A stretch of DNA of 42,410 bases from a virus, in the IMG/VR virus record IMGVR_UViG_3300014502_000013, positions 1 to 42,410 of that record. The stretch is one strand, 5' to 3'. The notes beneath the pieces were generated by a model. That model did no database searches, was not told the origin of the DNA, and saw only the letters and a list, made by a program, of their open reading frames with translations. The stretch's first letter is position 1, and every line of letters starts with the position of its first letter. The position numbers and the translations under genes are program-made. Positions 1-42,376 of this stretch are shown in pieces.

Positions 1-80
1 CGCAAACAAAAAGTATAATGAAATGGTCAGAAACTAAAAAGCGATCTGACAATGTTGATATGATGTCATCATTTCAGCCT

Positions 81-123
81 GGAGAGGTGACCGAGAGGCT
101 GAAGGTGCCGCTCTCGAAAAGCG
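81..123 (+). repeat. attL: attL: 43-bp copy of the tRNA-Ser 5' half
   Basis: The 43 bases are identical to 42288..42330. They run from the first base of the tRNA-Ser acceptor stem through the anticodon loop to the 3' side of the anticodon stem, then the sequence diverges, so this copy cannot make a tRNA. Bases 1..80 to the left are therefore host DNA that originally lay upstream of the tRNA gene, and everything from 124 on is phage. The integrase lies at the other end, next to attR. Confidence 0.95.
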
Positions 124-381: not shown

Positions 382-804
382 TTATACTGTTTGCCAGATA
401 ATTATGACAACCCAAACTATGAGGAAAGCTGAGGGAAAAACTACATAAGGACGGAGAAATGGAATTGACTTGGAATCTGGACGTCTTCCGATGATGTCAG
501 GGCCGATGTAATCAAGATTTTTATTTTCATCCCACCACATTCTAAGTGTCCTGATAGCTTTTAAACTTGATTGTATGGCGTAATAAGTTGATATGGATAA
601 CACAATCCCCAACACTGCTAGTAAATATATGAGAATAGATATATCGGTCTTTCCCCACGCAAATGCGAGAACGGCGAAAAGAATGCCTTGGAGTGTCCCA
701 AACCAAGTAATTCTGTGGTTAATCAATTCATTCTCATGTCTAATCATCTCACGAATTATCTCAGCTTCGTTGGTTCCAGCTTGATGGCCTAATTGTTGTT
801 CCAT
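382..804 (-). CDS. small membrane protein, two central TM helices and one C-terminal TM
   Basis: A 140-aa protein. A charged N-terminal part (about 1-35, with HENELINHR just before the membrane) leads into two hydrophobic helices (about 37-55 and 58-78), then a soluble stretch and a C-terminal hydrophobic helix (about 117-138). The layout recalls small phage and bacterial membrane proteins of the RipA octameric type, but I do not recognise it securely. The ATG at 804 is chosen because GGAG lies 9 bases upstream; a TTG at 819 has no such site. It lies alone in the cargo zone beside attL, convergent with nothing, and could be a lysogenic conversion or exclusion gene (inference). Confidence 0.75.
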   Translation of the reverse strand: MEQQLGHQAGTNEAEIIREMIRHENELINHRITWFGTLQGILFAVLAFAWGKTDISILIYLLAVLGIVLSISTYYAIQSSLKAIRTLRMWWDENKNLDYIGPDIIGRRPDSKSIPFLRPYVVFPSAFLIVWVVIIIWQTV

Positions 805-979
805 TCTAGTTTTCTCCAATTGAGGTCAATCCCCCGCATTGCCAAGTATCTCTTGTCTTATAGCCGTGTTCCACGCTTTGCTCTCGCACACTCCCATTTT
901 CTGAAGGTGCTGGCATACCACTCCGCGCATTGTGCCGCTGACTTGGCATATTCTTTTTATCTCTTTCAGATAGGTGGAG

Positions 980-1834
980 TTAAGTTACTTTTTCGGGCAC
1001 GGATATATCAGAAGAGTGGAACATAATTTCATGGCCTTTTTGTTTAGTGCTAGCACTATAATTAATAGAATAATTCAGTTTTGGCGAAGAAGCATACATC
1101 GTATTAATTTCGGGAACGTCGTCATAGGTTACTATCCAAGGCGTCCTAAGTTCGTCCAATATTACCTTAGATAAATTTAAATGATCTCGTGGATCCAAAG
1201 CGTTGAAATAGAGTTTATGCCCTTTTTTATAGTAAGGAGGGTCAACAAAACTGAGGCAATCTCCACGGCTATTATTTACGACATCCCTGATAAACTCAAC
1301 CGCATCAAAACGTGTCATCGATATATCATTTTTTCGACTGGCAAATTCTTCAATTCGCCGAATAAGTGAGTCTTTGTTGAATCTACAATCGATTTTGTAA
1401 TCGCCTGTCTGATCCAAACCACCGATAATACCACCTTCGATGATCCCTGAACGGTTTGTCCTATTGAGGAAAAAAGTAGCAAAGCCTAATTCAAGAACCG
1501 TATGGTCCATCGGATTTAAAAGAATATCTTTCTCGCGGAACCACTCGTTTACAGTTACTGGCGTATCCTTGATAAGCCGGCACAAATCCGAAGTCTCTTC
1601 TAATGCACTAGACCAAAAAGCGAAGACAGCGCAGTCTAAATCATTCAGGAATACGTGAGATACATAATTATCTGCCAATAACGCGAGGGCAATGCCTGCT
1701 CCACCTGCAAACGGTTCAGCATAACTTATCCCTGCAAGATCATTTAATTCAATGATCTTTTTTACCCAGCACGCCAAAGAAGATTTGCCTCCCGGGTATC
1801 TAAGAGGCGACCGATAGAAATTTTTAGTGGGCAT
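980..1834 (-). CDS. DNA adenine-N6 methyltransferase, D12 (Dam-like) class
   Basis: A 284-aa protein, close to Dam length (278). The D12 hallmarks are in order: RYPGGK near residue 13 (start of the AdoMet site), AEPFAGGAGIAL near 40 (motif I, AdoMet binding) and FVDPPYY near 196 (motif IV, catalytic DPPY). It should transfer a methyl group from AdoMet to adenine N6 in a short DNA site; Dam-like enzymes often use GATC but the target is not readable here. It follows the ParB-like gene by 49 bases and has its own AGAGGT ribosome site. No ordinary restriction endonuclease is beside it, so it is an orphan modifier, or the ParB-like partner supplies a second activity. Confidence 0.93.
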   Translation of the reverse strand: MPTKNFYRSPLRYPGGKSSLACWVKKIIELNDLAGISYAEPFAGGAGIALALLADNYVSHVFLNDLDCAVFAFWSSALEETSDLCRLIKDTPVTVNEWFREKDILLNPMDHTVLELGFATFFLNRTNRSGIIEGGIIGGLDQTGDYKIDCRFNKDSLIRRIEEFASRKNDISMTRFDAVEFIRDVVNNSRGDCLSFVDPPYYKKGHKLYFNALDPRDHLNLSKVILDELRTPWIVTYDDVPEINTMYASSPKLNYSINYSASTKQKGHEIMFHSSDISVPEKVT

Positions 1835-1883
1835 TTTTACCTCTTACTTGTATTATAATATGGCAAACGACTTTTGGCCAGTA

Positions 1884-3362
1884 TTATTTTAGAAGATATT
1901 CTAAGAGGTTTTTCAACCCGGACGAAACCCACCCCTCCAAGACTGTTCCGGTCGGCATCGACAACCCTGGATGATGCATATTTAAGTCCATCAATTCTTT
2001 TATCCCTTCTCCGTTAGGGAATAAGCCAACGAATACGCGGTGGTAATTCTTGTCTGCAAATAAATCTGGACTATTACAAAAATGTCTTAGAATTGTCGTT
2101 AGGAACGCGTCCTTGTTGACCGGACATAATTTTCCAAAAGCTGCGGAGTCATTAATTCGCAAATATCGTTTGCAGGCCTGTTCTATCAAAGCTCTGGTGA
2201 GAAATGATGTCGCCAGCGGGTATTGCCTATAAGCGCTTCCTCGGGAGATTTTTTTAATTTCTTCGCATATAGCGACCAATGCTTTGTCTTGATCTGTGAC
2301 AGGCGTAAATGTATAGGTTAAGTTCTCAAAATAGAAATCAGTCTGTCGTGTTGTTTTGTTTTTGAGAGTGGCGGGAGCTATGGGTTCCACCGACAGCGTC
2401 GTTGCAGGTACTCCTTTAATAACTGCATCGATAGGATTATCTTTTAACGTCTTCGCCGACTGGGGAATCTCGATGGACTTATCGCCCTGAATTGGTTTTT
2501 CGACAACATCGGGTATCCATTCTTTAACGTCGTCCTCAATGTCCAAAAACGTGTTACGAGTTGACAAAGGAGTTTTACCAGGCAGGAGATTGAGCGATCT
2601 TCTTACAACATACTCGACAATTTTGCCGAATTCAGGGAGTTCGGAAACCGGTTTAAAGTGTGTGTTATATGATAATTTTAGTTTTGATGCGCCTTCGGTC
2701 TGGAATATTCTCAATATTCTATCGACGCCAATTCGATGCAGTGAAGTATAATTAATTAGGTTTTGCTTTTCAACCTCTGACCAGCAATCAAGAGACAAAA
2801 TATATTGTAGAAAATAATGTTTTTTTAGAGCTGCTGTAATCTGGCTTTTCTTCACTCCAGTTAGCAACTCTATTTGCTCGATAGTTTTTCCAGATTCAAA
2901 GTGATTTGCAAAAAATATGAATTTCGAGATAGAAGGCCACGTTTTTACACCGGTAATATGCCTTGTCCCCAAAACTATTTGCGCTTCTTCTCTTGATCCG
3001 ATGACATGAACTTGGATTCTATTAAGCTGGGTTCTGGCATTCTTTGCTAACACCGGAACAGAAGCCCTATATTCAGTTGGCGCAAGGTTGGGGCTCAAAA
3101 GCACTTTTAAAGCGCAAAGACGGCGATTTCCTTCCACGACTATTTTCTTATCGTCTTCGATGCAAACTATCGGGAATTCTCCGGGCATTAAACCTCCATA
3201 TGCTGAAATGGACCTTGCAAGTTCGATTACCTCTTCGTTCTTTAAGAGGTAACCTATAATTCCGCTTTGACTCGTGTCTGCCAAATCTACAAACCTAGGA
3301 TTCTTCGCATCTAATAGCAGCTCTCTTACCCCAAATTTTCTAGTTTTGAATTTATCCGCCAT
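1884..3362 (-). CDS. ParB/Srx-domain protein, partner of the D12 methylase
   Basis: A 492-aa protein. The N-terminal third is a ParB/sulfiredoxin-like fold: NPRF near 23, then an ARSISAYGG helix, and EGNRRLCALK near 77 corresponding to the GxRR NTP/nuclease motif. Residues 130-240 look helical and may hold an HTH. A Pro/Lys-rich linker (about 275-345) leads to a helical C-terminal domain with FLTRALIEQACKRYL near 390. This length and C-terminal domain do not fit a plasmid ParB. ATG at 3362 has an AGGAG site; a promoter lies at 3418..3445. It is first in a two-gene operon with the methylase. Function unknown; DNA nicking, sensing or regulation are possible. Confidence 0.8.
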   Translation of the reverse strand: MADKFKTRKFGVRELLLDAKNPRFVDLADTSQSGIIGYLLKNEEVIELARSISAYGGLMPGEFPIVCIEDDKKIVVEGNRRLCALKVLLSPNLAPTEYRASVPVLAKNARTQLNRIQVHVIGSREEAQIVLGTRHITGVKTWPSISKFIFFANHFESGKTIEQIELLTGVKKSQITAALKKHYFLQYILSLDCWSEVEKQNLINYTSLHRIGVDRILRIFQTEGASKLKLSYNTHFKPVSELPEFGKIVEYVVRRSLNLLPGKTPLSTRNTFLDIEDDVKEWIPDVVEKPIQGDKSIEIPQSAKTLKDNPIDAVIKGVPATTLSVEPIAPATLKNKTTRQTDFYFENLTYTFTPVTDQDKALVAICEEIKKISRGSAYRQYPLATSFLTRALIEQACKRYLRINDSAAFGKLCPVNKDAFLTTILRHFCNSPDLFADKNYHRVFVGLFPNGEGIKELMDLNMHHPGLSMPTGTVLEGWVSSGLKNLLEYLLK

Positions 3363-3417: not shown

Positions 3418-3445
3418 ATTATAGCACTTTAACTAAAAAATTCAA
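3418..3445 (-). promoter_or_regulatory. promoter of the ParB-like/D12 methylase operon
   Basis: On the minus strand there is TTGAAT (3440..3445), a 16-base spacer and a perfect TATAAT (3418..3423), about 55 bases before the ATG at 3362. This makes the cargo operon independent of the phage late promoter, so it can be expressed in the lysogen. Confidence 0.7.
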
Positions 3446-4074: not shown

Positions 4075-4078
4075 GCAA

Positions 4079-4149
4079 TTTACCGAGCGGGAGTCAGACC
4101 CGCATTTACTCCTTGAGAGGGAGCTGTCCTATCGTTAGACTACCGGGGA
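4079..4149 (-). tRNA. tRNA-Glu(CTC)-like, divergent
   Basis: A 71-nt cloverleaf can be drawn. The anticodon arm is perfect (5 bp, loop CTCTCAA, anticodon CTC), the D stem is GTCT/GGAC and the T stem GCGGG/CCCGC. Odd points: the T loop is TCTGACT, not TTCGAAT, the D loop lacks the usual GG (AACGATA), the acceptor stem has two mismatches, and CCA is not encoded. In the D/T loop contact the usual G19-C56 becomes A19-T56, which would still pair. It has its own promoter and terminator. It could be a working phage tRNA, a tRNA mimic, or a relic. Confidence 0.6.
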
Positions 4150-4179
4150 ATGGATAAGGTACTTAATCCTTACCCTTAT

Positions 4180-39762: not shown

Positions 39763-39797
39763 AGTAGGCTCGGAATGAATCTGTTAAGAGGTTGAAC

Positions 39798-41093
39798 ATG
39801 GCTCCTAAAAAGCGAAGTTCTATAGCATTTACGTTGTTCATTGGGTCCTTGGTTCTTTTAGCCTTGGTACTTGTCATTGTCTTTGTCGCCAACCTCCCAG
39901 GTAAAGCTCCAAATAATAAGACTATAACTACCACGCCTACAATGTCTGCAACCTTTACCTCTACAACCACAGCAACTACAACGACAGCTGCAATGACAAC
40001 CGCAACGACAATCGCGACGACTACGACCAACCCAACAATAACTACAACATCCTCTACGGTGATCACGTCGACCACATCAACGTCCGCGGATCCGATGGGT
40101 ATGAGTGTCTATTACTTCGATGTCGGTCAGGGTGATTGCATCCTTATTGATCAGGGAACCACAGAAATATTGATTGACGCCGGTACCGGAGCCGTAAACG
40201 TAGCCAACCTGATCAAGCCCTACATCGACGGCCCGTTAGAAGATATCATTGCCACTCACATGGATGCTGACCATATCGGCGGCTTGGCGGCTGTCTTGAG
40301 CAGCTATACAGTTCTGAATGTCTGGGATAACGGAGATACCAGTACTTCGGCAACCTATAAAACATTTAAAGCTGCTATTCAAACGAGCGGCGCCGTTGAA
40401 CATGCCGGTCGACGCGGAAACGTAATCACTGCCGGTACCCTTTCGTTTAACGTGCTCAACCCTGTCAATACTTCTGGTACCAGTAACAATAATTCAATTG
40501 TTACAAGACTCAATTACGGCAGCATTAGTTTCCAGTTTGAAGGTGACGCCGAGCAAGAAGCGGAATCCAGCATGTTGGCAGCCGGCTTAATTTCCCATGT
40601 CGACATTTTGAAGGTTGGCCACCACGGATCCAGGACAGCTTCCTCCCCGGCCTTCCTGAAAGCTACCAGCCCAAAAGTAGCGGTTTATCAGGCCGGAATC
40701 GGTAATAGTTACGGTCATCCCCACCCGGAGACAATAACGGCACTTACGCAAATCGGCGCTTTAATTTATGGAACCGACAAATACGGAACCATTGCGATAA
40801 AAACAGATGGCACCTCTTATAATATTGATGGCTCGCGCGCTCCGCCATCAACAACACCGGCAGCGGTTATACCTGGAATTCCATCGACTAGTTCAAATAC
40901 GATAATAACAACGACGTTGACTACAACGACATCCCCAACTATCCAAGGTGCCAATGACATCGTCTACATTACTAATAGCGGAACCAAATATCACCGGGCC
41001 GGTTGCAGATATCTTTCAAAGAGTGCCATCGCTATCAGTAAAGCCGACGCTATCGCAAGAGGTTTCAGTCCCTGCTCAGTTTGTAATCCATAA
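39798..41093 (+). CDS. secreted/membrane-anchored MBL-fold hydrolase (ComEC C-terminal type) with Ada-like zinc tail
   Basis: A 431-aa protein. A basic start and a hydrophobic helix (about 9-34) give a signal anchor. A Thr-rich spacer follows (about 40-95). Residues about 98-340 are a metallo-beta-lactamase fold: FDVGQGDCILID, LIDAGTG, and THMDADHIGG with the HxHxDH-type ligands, then VGHHGSRTA. A second Thr-rich linker leads to YHRAGCRYLSKSA...PCSVCNP (about 393-431), a Cys/His zinc-knuckle like Ada. It would act outside the cytoplasm, on nucleotide or phosphate ester substrates. AGAGGT precedes ATG 39798. It lies between repressor and integrase. Confidence 0.82.
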   Translation: MAPKKRSSIAFTLFIGSLVLLALVLVIVFVANLPGKAPNNKTITTTPTMSATFTSTTTATTTTAAMTTATTIATTTTNPTITTTSSTVITSTTSTSADPMGMSVYYFDVGQGDCILIDQGTTEILIDAGTGAVNVANLIKPYIDGPLEDIIATHMDADHIGGLAAVLSSYTVLNVWDNGDTSTSATYKTFKAAIQTSGAVEHAGRRGNVITAGTLSFNVLNPVNTSGTSNNNSIVTRLNYGSISFQFEGDAEQEAESSMLAAGLISHVDILKVGHHGSRTASSPAFLKATSPKVAVYQAGIGNSYGHPHPETITALTQIGALIYGTDKYGTIAIKTDGTSYNIDGSRAPPSTTPAAVIPGIPSTSSNTIITTTLTTTTSPTIQGANDIVYITNSGTKYHRAGCRYLSKSAIAISKADAIARGFSPCSVCNP

Positions 41094-41117: not shown

Positions 41118-42242
41118 ATGCGCGGTCACATCGTCAAGAAATATAAAAGTTCTTACACTATCCTGCTGTCTTTAGGCCGCGATCCGATAACTAACAAATA
41201 CAAAACAAAATCAGTCAATGTGAAGGGCACCCGGGCCATGGCGGACAAGAAGCTCGCGGAACTTTTACATCAGGGCACGACTACCGGCTTCATCGATTCA
41301 TCGAAGACAACTCTTGGAGAGTTCTTGCTAAAATGGCTTGACCTTCGTAAAACCAAACTTCCTCCCAGTTCCTATGCCAGCGACGAGATGGTGGTCAATT
41401 ATCACCTTATACCGTCACTGGGTAAAATCCCGGTGCAGTCCTTGGCTCTAGAACATGTCGAATCCTACTACTCCAAGAAGGTAAAACAAGGTCTGAATCC
41501 TTTGACAGTGAGAAAACATCACATCGTGCTTCTGGGTGCGCTGGAAACCGCCCTGAAATGGGGATTGGTATATCGAAATGTCGCACAAGGCGCGGACACT
41601 CCCAAAGGAAAGCGAAAAGAATTCGAGACTTGGGATGTTGACGAGGTAAACCAATTTTTAAACAATCAAAAAGACAGCCCTAAATACGCTCTGTTTTACA
41701 CCGATTTATTTACGGGGATGCGCCGGTCTGAAATACTGGCGCTCAGATGGTCTGATATCGACCTGACACAGGGAACAATTGCCGTTAAAAGAGGCCTTCA
41801 CCAGGGTAAAGACAGGAAGTATTACTACTCCGACACAAAATCAGCTAAAAGCAGACGTGTAATTGATATATCTCCATCTGTTATAATGGTTCTTAGAAAA
41901 CATTGGGAAACGTCTAAACTCCCACAAGGTCAGGATTCGTTGGTATTCTCAAATCAAGGTAAACAGCTGCGACCCAACACTATTTCACGGATATGGACTG
42001 CCAGTTGTAAAAAGGCCGGCGTTAAAGTTATCCGGCTCCATGATGCCCGGCATACCCACGCCACCCTTCTCCTTCTGGCCGGTGTCCACCCGAAGATAGT
42101 CCAGGAAAGATTGGGACATGCATCGATCGCTGTTACTTTGGATCTATATAGTCACGTCATGCCGACAATGCAGAAAAGCGCGGCCCAGTCGTTCGAAGAG
42201 CTTTTTACTCCGAAGTCAAAAATGGATTTGGTCGGTATTTGA
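41118..42242 (+). CDS. int: tyrosine-type phage integrase
   Basis: A 374-aa protein. Residues 1-55 are an arm-binding domain (YTILLSLGRDPITNKYKTKS), about 60-150 a core-binding SAM-like domain (TLGEFLLKWLDLRK), and 165-360 the catalytic domain: FTGMRRSEILALRW (Arg I), the beta-hairpin Lys region, HDARHTHATLLLLAG (His/Arg) and LGHASIAVTLDLYSHV (His and the nucleophile Tyr). It cuts and joins attP and attB, here in tRNA-Ser 45 bases beyond its stop. GAGGT precedes ATG 41118. It is 24 bases behind the MBL gene and may share its message. Confidence 0.95.
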   Translation: MRGHIVKKYKSSYTILLSLGRDPITNKYKTKSVNVKGTRAMADKKLAELLHQGTTTGFIDSSKTTLGEFLLKWLDLRKTKLPPSSYASDEMVVNYHLIPSLGKIPVQSLALEHVESYYSKKVKQGLNPLTVRKHHIVLLGALETALKWGLVYRNVAQGADTPKGKRKEFETWDVDEVNQFLNNQKDSPKYALFYTDLFTGMRRSEILALRWSDIDLTQGTIAVKRGLHQGKDRKYYYSDTKSAKSRRVIDISPSVIMVLRKHWETSKLPQGQDSLVFSNQGKQLRPNTISRIWTASCKKAGVKVIRLHDARHTHATLLLLAGVHPKIVQERLGHASIAVTLDLYSHVMPTMQKSAAQSFEELFTPKSKMDLVGI

Positions 42243-42250: not shown

Positions 42251-42287
42251 GTTTTTATGTCAACCTGAAACATGGTTTCTGAAGCTA

Positions 42288-42330
42288 GGAGAGGTGACCG
42301 AGAGGCTGAAGGTGCCGCTCTCGAAAAGCG
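42288..42330 (+). repeat. attR: attR: 43-bp core shared with attL
   Basis: Perfect copy of 81..123. It forms the 5' half of the intact tRNA-Ser. The phage-carried copy restores the gene, and host DNA continues after 42330. Confidence 0.95.
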
Positions 42331-42376
42331 GTTACGGTAACCCCGTACGCGGGTTCGAATCCCGCCCTCTCCGCCA
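42288..42376 (+). tRNA. tRNA-Ser(CGA)
   Basis: An 89-nt gene: acceptor GGAGAGG/CCTCTCC, anticodon stem CCGCT/AGCGG with loop CTCGAAA (anticodon CGA, reads UCG), a long variable arm (GTAACCCCGTAC part) as in type II tRNAs, T arm with TTCGAATC, discriminator G and encoded CCA. The first 43 bases come from the phage side and the rest from the host. Its old host promoter now lies left of attL, 42 kb away, so phage sequence (integrase read-through or a weak local promoter) must drive it. No clear promoter is visible at 42243..42287. Confidence 0.95.

Follow-up and report, generated by a model that had tools for sequence, protein, structure and literature searches.

At one end of a prophage, beside its left attachment site, lie a gene for a ParB-like protein with a helical C-terminus and a gene for a DNA methylase, and the question raised by this locus is whether the two act together as a modification and DNA-sensing or defence system of two parts. 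This idea came from a first-pass annotation of the DNA, which placed a ParB-like protein and a D12 methylase at 980–3362 beside attL. Both open reading frames are found exactly there, and attL is a 48-bp repeat of tRNA-Ser. We refer to the ParB-like gene as A, to the methylase gene as B, and to the whole 42,410-nt stretch analysed (positions 1 to 42,410 of the IMG/VR virus record IMGVR_UViG_3300014502_000013) as the window. Both A and B match components of PD-λ-5 (PADLOC), which supports the proposal of a two-part system, and on sequence grounds the pair is a divergent member of this already known system type. The first-pass annotation had not recognised it as such.

The locus and its prophage

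The window is a complete prophage. The two copies of its 48-bp repeat are 96% identical when compared within the stretch, and the features discussed here are collected in Table 1. A and B are encoded on the same strand, with A first, and are separated by a spacer of 49 bp. In a Pfam search the neighbours of the pair were found to be an 8xMP membrane protein and one unassigned open reading frame, in keeping with the earlier remark that no classic restriction enzyme is present. The 8xMP gene was considered as a third component; it was found beside none of the relatives searched, and was therefore left out of the system. A literature search on 8xMP found nothing.

Table 1. Features of the prophage, in nucleotide coordinates of the window
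Feature	Coordinates	Strand	Basis or remark
attL	76..123	+	5' half of a tRNA-Ser (truncated); 48 bp, repeated at attR
Membrane protein, Pfam 8xMP (octameric membrane protein family)	382..819	-	E 5e-9; sits between B and attL
Gene B, PD-Lambda-5_B-type D12-class DNA adenine methylase	980..1834	-	284 aa, ATG start
Possible promoter of B, in the A–B spacer	1852..1880	-	TGGCCA-17-TATAAT, 10/12; consensus match only
Gene A, PD-Lambda-5_A-type protein, predicted ParB/Srx fold	1884..3362	-	492 aa, ATG start
A residues 345-492, predicted all-helical C-domain, weakly HEPN-like fold	1887..2330	-	AlphaFold, Foldseek, alignment
A residues 286-344, linker, probably disordered	2331..2507	-	pLDDT below 50 at 289-325 and 330-340
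A residues 141-285, predicted helical region with ParB-like helix-turn-helix (about 161-190)	2508..2942	-	alignment, AlphaFold
A residues 1-140, predicted ParB/Srx N-domain	2943..3362	-	alignment, AlphaFold, Foldseek
Possible promoter of A	3418..3445	-	TTGAAT-16-TATAAT, TG before -10; consensus match only
Second ParB-like phage protein, 776 aa	33920-36250	-	PHROG 4715 E 7e-23
ComEC/Rec2-type metallo-beta-lactamase-fold protein	39792-41093	+	TIGR00361 E 2e-34; PADLOC LmuA E 8e-18, Avs1a E 2e-12
Tyrosine integrase	41118..42242	+	PF00589 E 1e-27; adjoins attR
attR copy	42283..42330	+	inside intact tRNA-Ser(CGA) 42288-42376

In terms of transcription, B had been credited with a good promoter of its own. 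The candidate site does have a good -10 element, but its -35 element is poor and a promoter scan of the region returned 12 sites against 7.9 +/- 2.2 by chance, i.e. little excess, so that a promoter belonging to B itself is weakly supported.

With respect to the host, the tRNA-Ser of the prophage reaches up to 84–87% identity with Chloroflexota genomes, and the nearest A found comes from a Dehalococcoidia genome bin. An assignment to Chloroflexota was considered on these two grounds, which do not settle the host. Beside the closest relative of the pair, at L002:8292-9188 (+), lies a gene for a 298-aa protein with a weak match to the PADLOC candidate PDC-S11 (E 5e-6). The prophage also holds a tRNA-Glu(CTC) gene at 4078-4150 (-). 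Of its other genes, the one of ComEC/Rec2 type, directly beside the integrase, might be another defence cargo, this one at the end with attR, and the 776-aa ParB-like protein is apparently unrelated to the A–B pair.

Co-occurrence of A and B

Relatives of A came from three sources: viral contigs, searched with a pattern confined to the ParB domain; records of phages and plasmids; and a set of 301 Chloroflexota genomes. Since they were collected by A alone, the methylase had no part in the collection. Once near-duplicates had been removed, a D12 methylase gene was found within about 500 bp of every one of the 24 non-redundant A proteins that bear the C-domain, and the proposed association of the two families thus came through this methylase-blind comparison without being refuted. 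The distances among A proteins and among their B partners, calculated for 44 complete pairs, were also correlated (Mantel r 0.63), with 0 of 2000 permutations giving a value as high and the largest reaching 0.19. By these counts and distances, A and B are shown to behave as a conserved unit that is inherited together.

Gene B

The assignment of B to the D12 methylases is supported by its match to PF02086 (E 1e-14, 55 bits, cut-off 22), and PADLOC PD-Lambda-5_B matches it over residues 7–282 of 284 (E 2e-114). A further PADLOC model, MTase_II PDLC03358, matches at E 1e-102. Of the earlier description of B as a Dam-like D12 methylase, the D12 class stands and the likeness to Dam was overstated; Dam proper was rejected, with TIGR00571 scoring 36 bits against a curated cut-off of 115. 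The motifs YPGGK, EPFAGG and DPPY are intact, and PLRYPGGK (P10–K17), E40, G44, G45 and D198-P-P-Y201 are invariant over 20 relatives. With its SAM-binding and DPPY motifs invariant, B looks catalytically intact.

GATC is rarer in the window than expected (121 sites vs 170 +/- 11 in dinucleotide shuffles); this scarcity was considered as a pointer to the target site of B, which it does not identify. The closest B-type methylases occur also without A, for example beside AAA ATPases in E. coli. Genes for AAA/OLD-like ATPases adjoin close relatives of B at L024, L042 and L043 (a Citrobacter phage and E. coli chromosomes), and methylase plus AAA/OLD-like ATPase is a possible further methylase–effector pairing.

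Domain structure of protein A

The sequence of A itself has no match in Pfam. Among more than 20 PADLOC models of PD-Lambda-5_A that match it, the best reaches E 3e-37; the matches to these models are strongest over residues 9–141 to 11–212 and weaker over the C-terminus. At E <= 0.1, ParB_N is matched by 5 of 47 relatives. An AlphaFold model based on an alignment of 40 relatives (seven rows from phage and plasmid records were left out) has a mean pLDDT of 84 and is composed of an alpha/beta N-domain resembling that of ParB, a helical region that holds a ParB-like helix-turn-helix, a linker modelled with low confidence and an all-helical C-domain. When this model was compared with the PDB using Foldseek, the top matches were chains of ParB, Noc, KorB and Spo0J, headed by 7bnr_A (E 9e-4, probability 1.00). 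Taken together, the PADLOC match, the AlphaFold and Foldseek matches to ParB proteins and the relatives that match ParB_N argue that the N-domain of A has a ParB-type fold. No credible match to the sequences of solved structures was obtained with A itself, with its family profile or with a profile of the C-domain, the match to 3jqh spanning 15 residues.

Conservation in this part of A is concentrated, to the point of invariance or nearly so, in NPR (21–23), EGNRR (77–81) and H135, and in W142 just beyond the N-domain. ParB proteins can serve as nucleotide-gated DNA clamps, and the EGNRR of A resembles one nucleotide motif of such clamps, GERR; the other nucleotide motif of ParB could not be made out by eye, and CTP binding and hydrolysis by A are putative. 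The region that follows, residues 141–285 with the helix-turn-helix, is missing from several relatives, so that target recognition may not depend on the helix-turn-helix.

The C-domain was described at first pass as helical, and the AlphaFold model agrees, with helices making up residues 357–491; folded alone, the domain reaches a pLDDT of 92. Its first seven matches in the PDB are all HEPN-superfamily chains, including the HepT-type toxins 7bxo, 7ae9, 8xeh and 6m6w, the MtlR-family protein 3c8g and HI0074 (1jog), and all are weak (E about 1–2.4, TM 0.33–0.48); for the HEPN matches as a whole, the best E is 0.9 and TM runs from 0.33 to 0.51. The HEPN toxins 8yuf and 8xdj appear at lower rank. 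Among 40 members of the C-domain family, weak profile matches are seen to DUF4145, which is a HEPN family, in 4 and to DUF5677 in 3. The HEPN signal given by these models and profiles is thus consistent but weak.

With respect to a possible active site, the histidine of the HEPN motif (H463) is kept in 39 of the 40 members, and E368, R390 and E394 are conserved as well, being nearly invariant. The Rx4-6H motif as such is absent from the C-domain, as position 458, where its arginine would stand, is L or M in 36/40. Given the weak fold match and the replacement of this arginine, the C-domain may be inactive or act differently, and we term it HEPN-like, weakly so, rather than a canonical HEPN RNase. 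The loss of this standard arginine makes the action of the C-domain the least certain part of our reading.

Relation to PD-λ-5 and other known systems

PD-λ-5 was found by functional selection in E. coli, where it altered plating or plaque size for all but one of ten phages, and its discoverers (Vassallo et al. 2022, PMC9519451) regard it as an RM+Abi system in a compacted prophage form. The conjecture of a defence function is therefore supported, and was already known for this system type. We found no published mechanism for PD-λ-5, and the published text on the system is silent on abortive infection as its mode of action. A and B, adjacent and on the same strand, agree with PD-λ-5 in family, composition and order. 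As far as the PADLOC models convey it, the two also share a long A with a C-terminal domain, a D12 methylase and carriage on a prophage. These models describe the long-A architecture over its full length, as is apparent from relatives of the same layout (L035, E 5e-302; L031, 7e-190; L008, 7e-174). The A of the window differs in being divergent in sequence, with a PADLOC match mainly over its N-terminal 140–210 residues, and the nearest relative found (61–72% identity) is in the Dehalococcoidia bin and not in enterobacteria. A DNA-similarity search for the original E. coli PD-λ-5 with a Kosakonia pair matched the methylase alone, beside AAA ATPases.

Related combinations have been listed before. 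A 2013 paper (PMC3710099) lists fusions of ParB with HEPN domains of the Swt1-like group (Saro_3948), and also operons in which a HEPN gene accompanies genes for ParB and a DNA methylase (MAE_28990). The prophage pair resembles these fusions in joining ParB to a HEPN-type domain with a methylase nearby, but its C-domain retains the histidine without the motif arginine. With type II restriction-modification systems the pair has in common the combination of a DNA methylase with a putative effector, and B also matches MTase_II; here, however, no restriction endonuclease gene is adjacent, and B is paired instead with a ParB-type protein that bears a HEPN-like domain.

A sister architecture with a separate nuclease-like gene

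Some relatives of A are short proteins of about 355–400 aa that lack the C-domain. The gene behind them encodes a protein of about 300–340 aa, which belongs to one family in 51 of 52 cases (PHROG 3984, 'unknown function'; L085:4962-6071 and 50 homologues). In its motif 'GDGGLDIIAW...FVQCG', D250 and D254 are invariant and Q274 is present in 50/51, and from this pattern the family looks like a PD-(D/E)XK nuclease. The methylases accompanying short A fall into three unrelated classes (C5, 29; D12, 17; N6/N4, 3), with four further short-A loci standing outside these counts, either for their short flanks or for lack of a recognised methylase. Among the collected relatives, the prophage pair included, the C-domain and the nuclease-like gene were never found together.

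The gp98-gp96-mth cassette of the P2-like phage Wphi belongs to this sister architecture. Such Wphi/P2-like cassettes resemble the prophage pair in their methylase gene and in a ParB-like N-domain homologous to that of A; unlike the pair, they have a short A without the helical C-domain and a separate PD-(D/E)XK-like gene, and their methylase is usually convergent and of the C5, D12 or N6/N4 class. Judged by gene content and motifs, the short ParB-like gene, the nuclease-like gene and the methylase look like an unrecognised three-gene cassette of restriction-modification type that is present in P2-like phages. At one locus (L230:1032-7030), the short ParB-like gene and the nuclease-like gene accompanying it are clustered with Z1, DUF4420 (PD-(D/E)XK) and HhH-GPD genes near an integrase.

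A simple rule describes both layouts: where the ParB-like protein has the helical tail its partner is a D12 methylase, and where it lacks the tail it is accompanied by the PD-(D/E)XK-like gene and by a methylase of any of the three classes. This alternation of tail and nuclease gene suggests that sensing falls to the ParB part and that the tail is the effector, and a constant sensor with an exchangeable mark and an exchangeable effector follows the logic of restriction-modification.

Proposed mechanism and alternatives

The reading we favour, and consider reasonably probable, is that the prophage carries the pair as cargo and that the two genes make up a divergent anti-phage system of the PD-λ-5 type, in which B marks self, A senses and the C-domain is the effector. 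In detail, B would mark the DNA of host and prophage as self by methylating adenines within a specific sequence. A would bind DNA by its ParB/HTH part and recognise incoming DNA that lacks the mark, or else a phage-altered state, and recognition would make A assemble or unleash its C-domain. The latter would then serve as the effector and shut down the infected cell, most likely as an RNase. In the sister architecture, a separate PD-(D/E)XK-like nuclease would take the place of the C-domain beside the same ParB part.

Some of the evidence could also be taken to mean that A is itself a DNA nuclease, an activity reported for some ParB/Srx proteins, and cuts unmethylated DNA, with the C-domain dimerising or regulating it and the pair forming a compact restriction-modification system. 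PMC12839542 cites nucleases and NTPases of the ParB/Srx superfamily that act in conflicts, and both the near or complete invariance of NPR and EGNRR in the N-domain and the loss of the HEPN motif arginine from the C-domain would fit such a role. We nonetheless hold it to be unlikely, as relatives without the tail regularly carry the separate PD-(D/E)XK-like gene, for which there would be no need if DNA were cut by the ParB part, and as the near invariance of H463, R390, E368 and E394 gives the C-domain the appearance of an active site. It is also rather improbable that the pair is a toxin–antitoxin-like guard, with the HEPN-like domain of A toxic when free, held off for as long as B or its methylation is intact and triggered by phage disturbance. 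Toxins with HEPN domains are common in abortive infection (PMC3710099) and A and B are co-inherited, as such a guard would have it, but the sister architecture is served by three unrelated methylase classes, which suggests that what matters is the DNA mark and not contact with one protein.

A role in phage housekeeping, in which a partition-like or regulatory ParB and an orphan methylase protect the DNA of the phage itself and have no part in host defence, seems to us very improbable. Phages commonly carry orphan methylases and ParB-like genes, and this prophage does hold another ParB-like gene (Table 1). Set against this are the strict pairing of A with a methylase, the position of the pair at the attachment site and away from structural genes, the exchange of effectors between the two architectures, and the defence shown experimentally for PD-λ-5 in E. 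coli.

Returning to the favoured reading of a divergent PD-λ-5 system, the prophage pair by itself is an ordinary result, as it represents a known kind of defence cargo. Beyond it, we tentatively put forward a wider scheme, possible though as yet doubtful, in which methylation-dependent defence systems form a modular class built on ParB-type sensors as their constant core. Around this core, the class of methylase (D12, C5 or N6/N4) and the effector (a fused HEPN-like domain or a separate PD-(D/E)XK-like nuclease) would be exchanged, and in the branch of the prophage pair a modified HEPN-like active site (R390/H463/E394) would kill or arrest the infected cell once the sensor has encountered DNA without the mark. 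The exchange rule makes the mechanism of PD-λ-5 testable, and names the residues to mutate.
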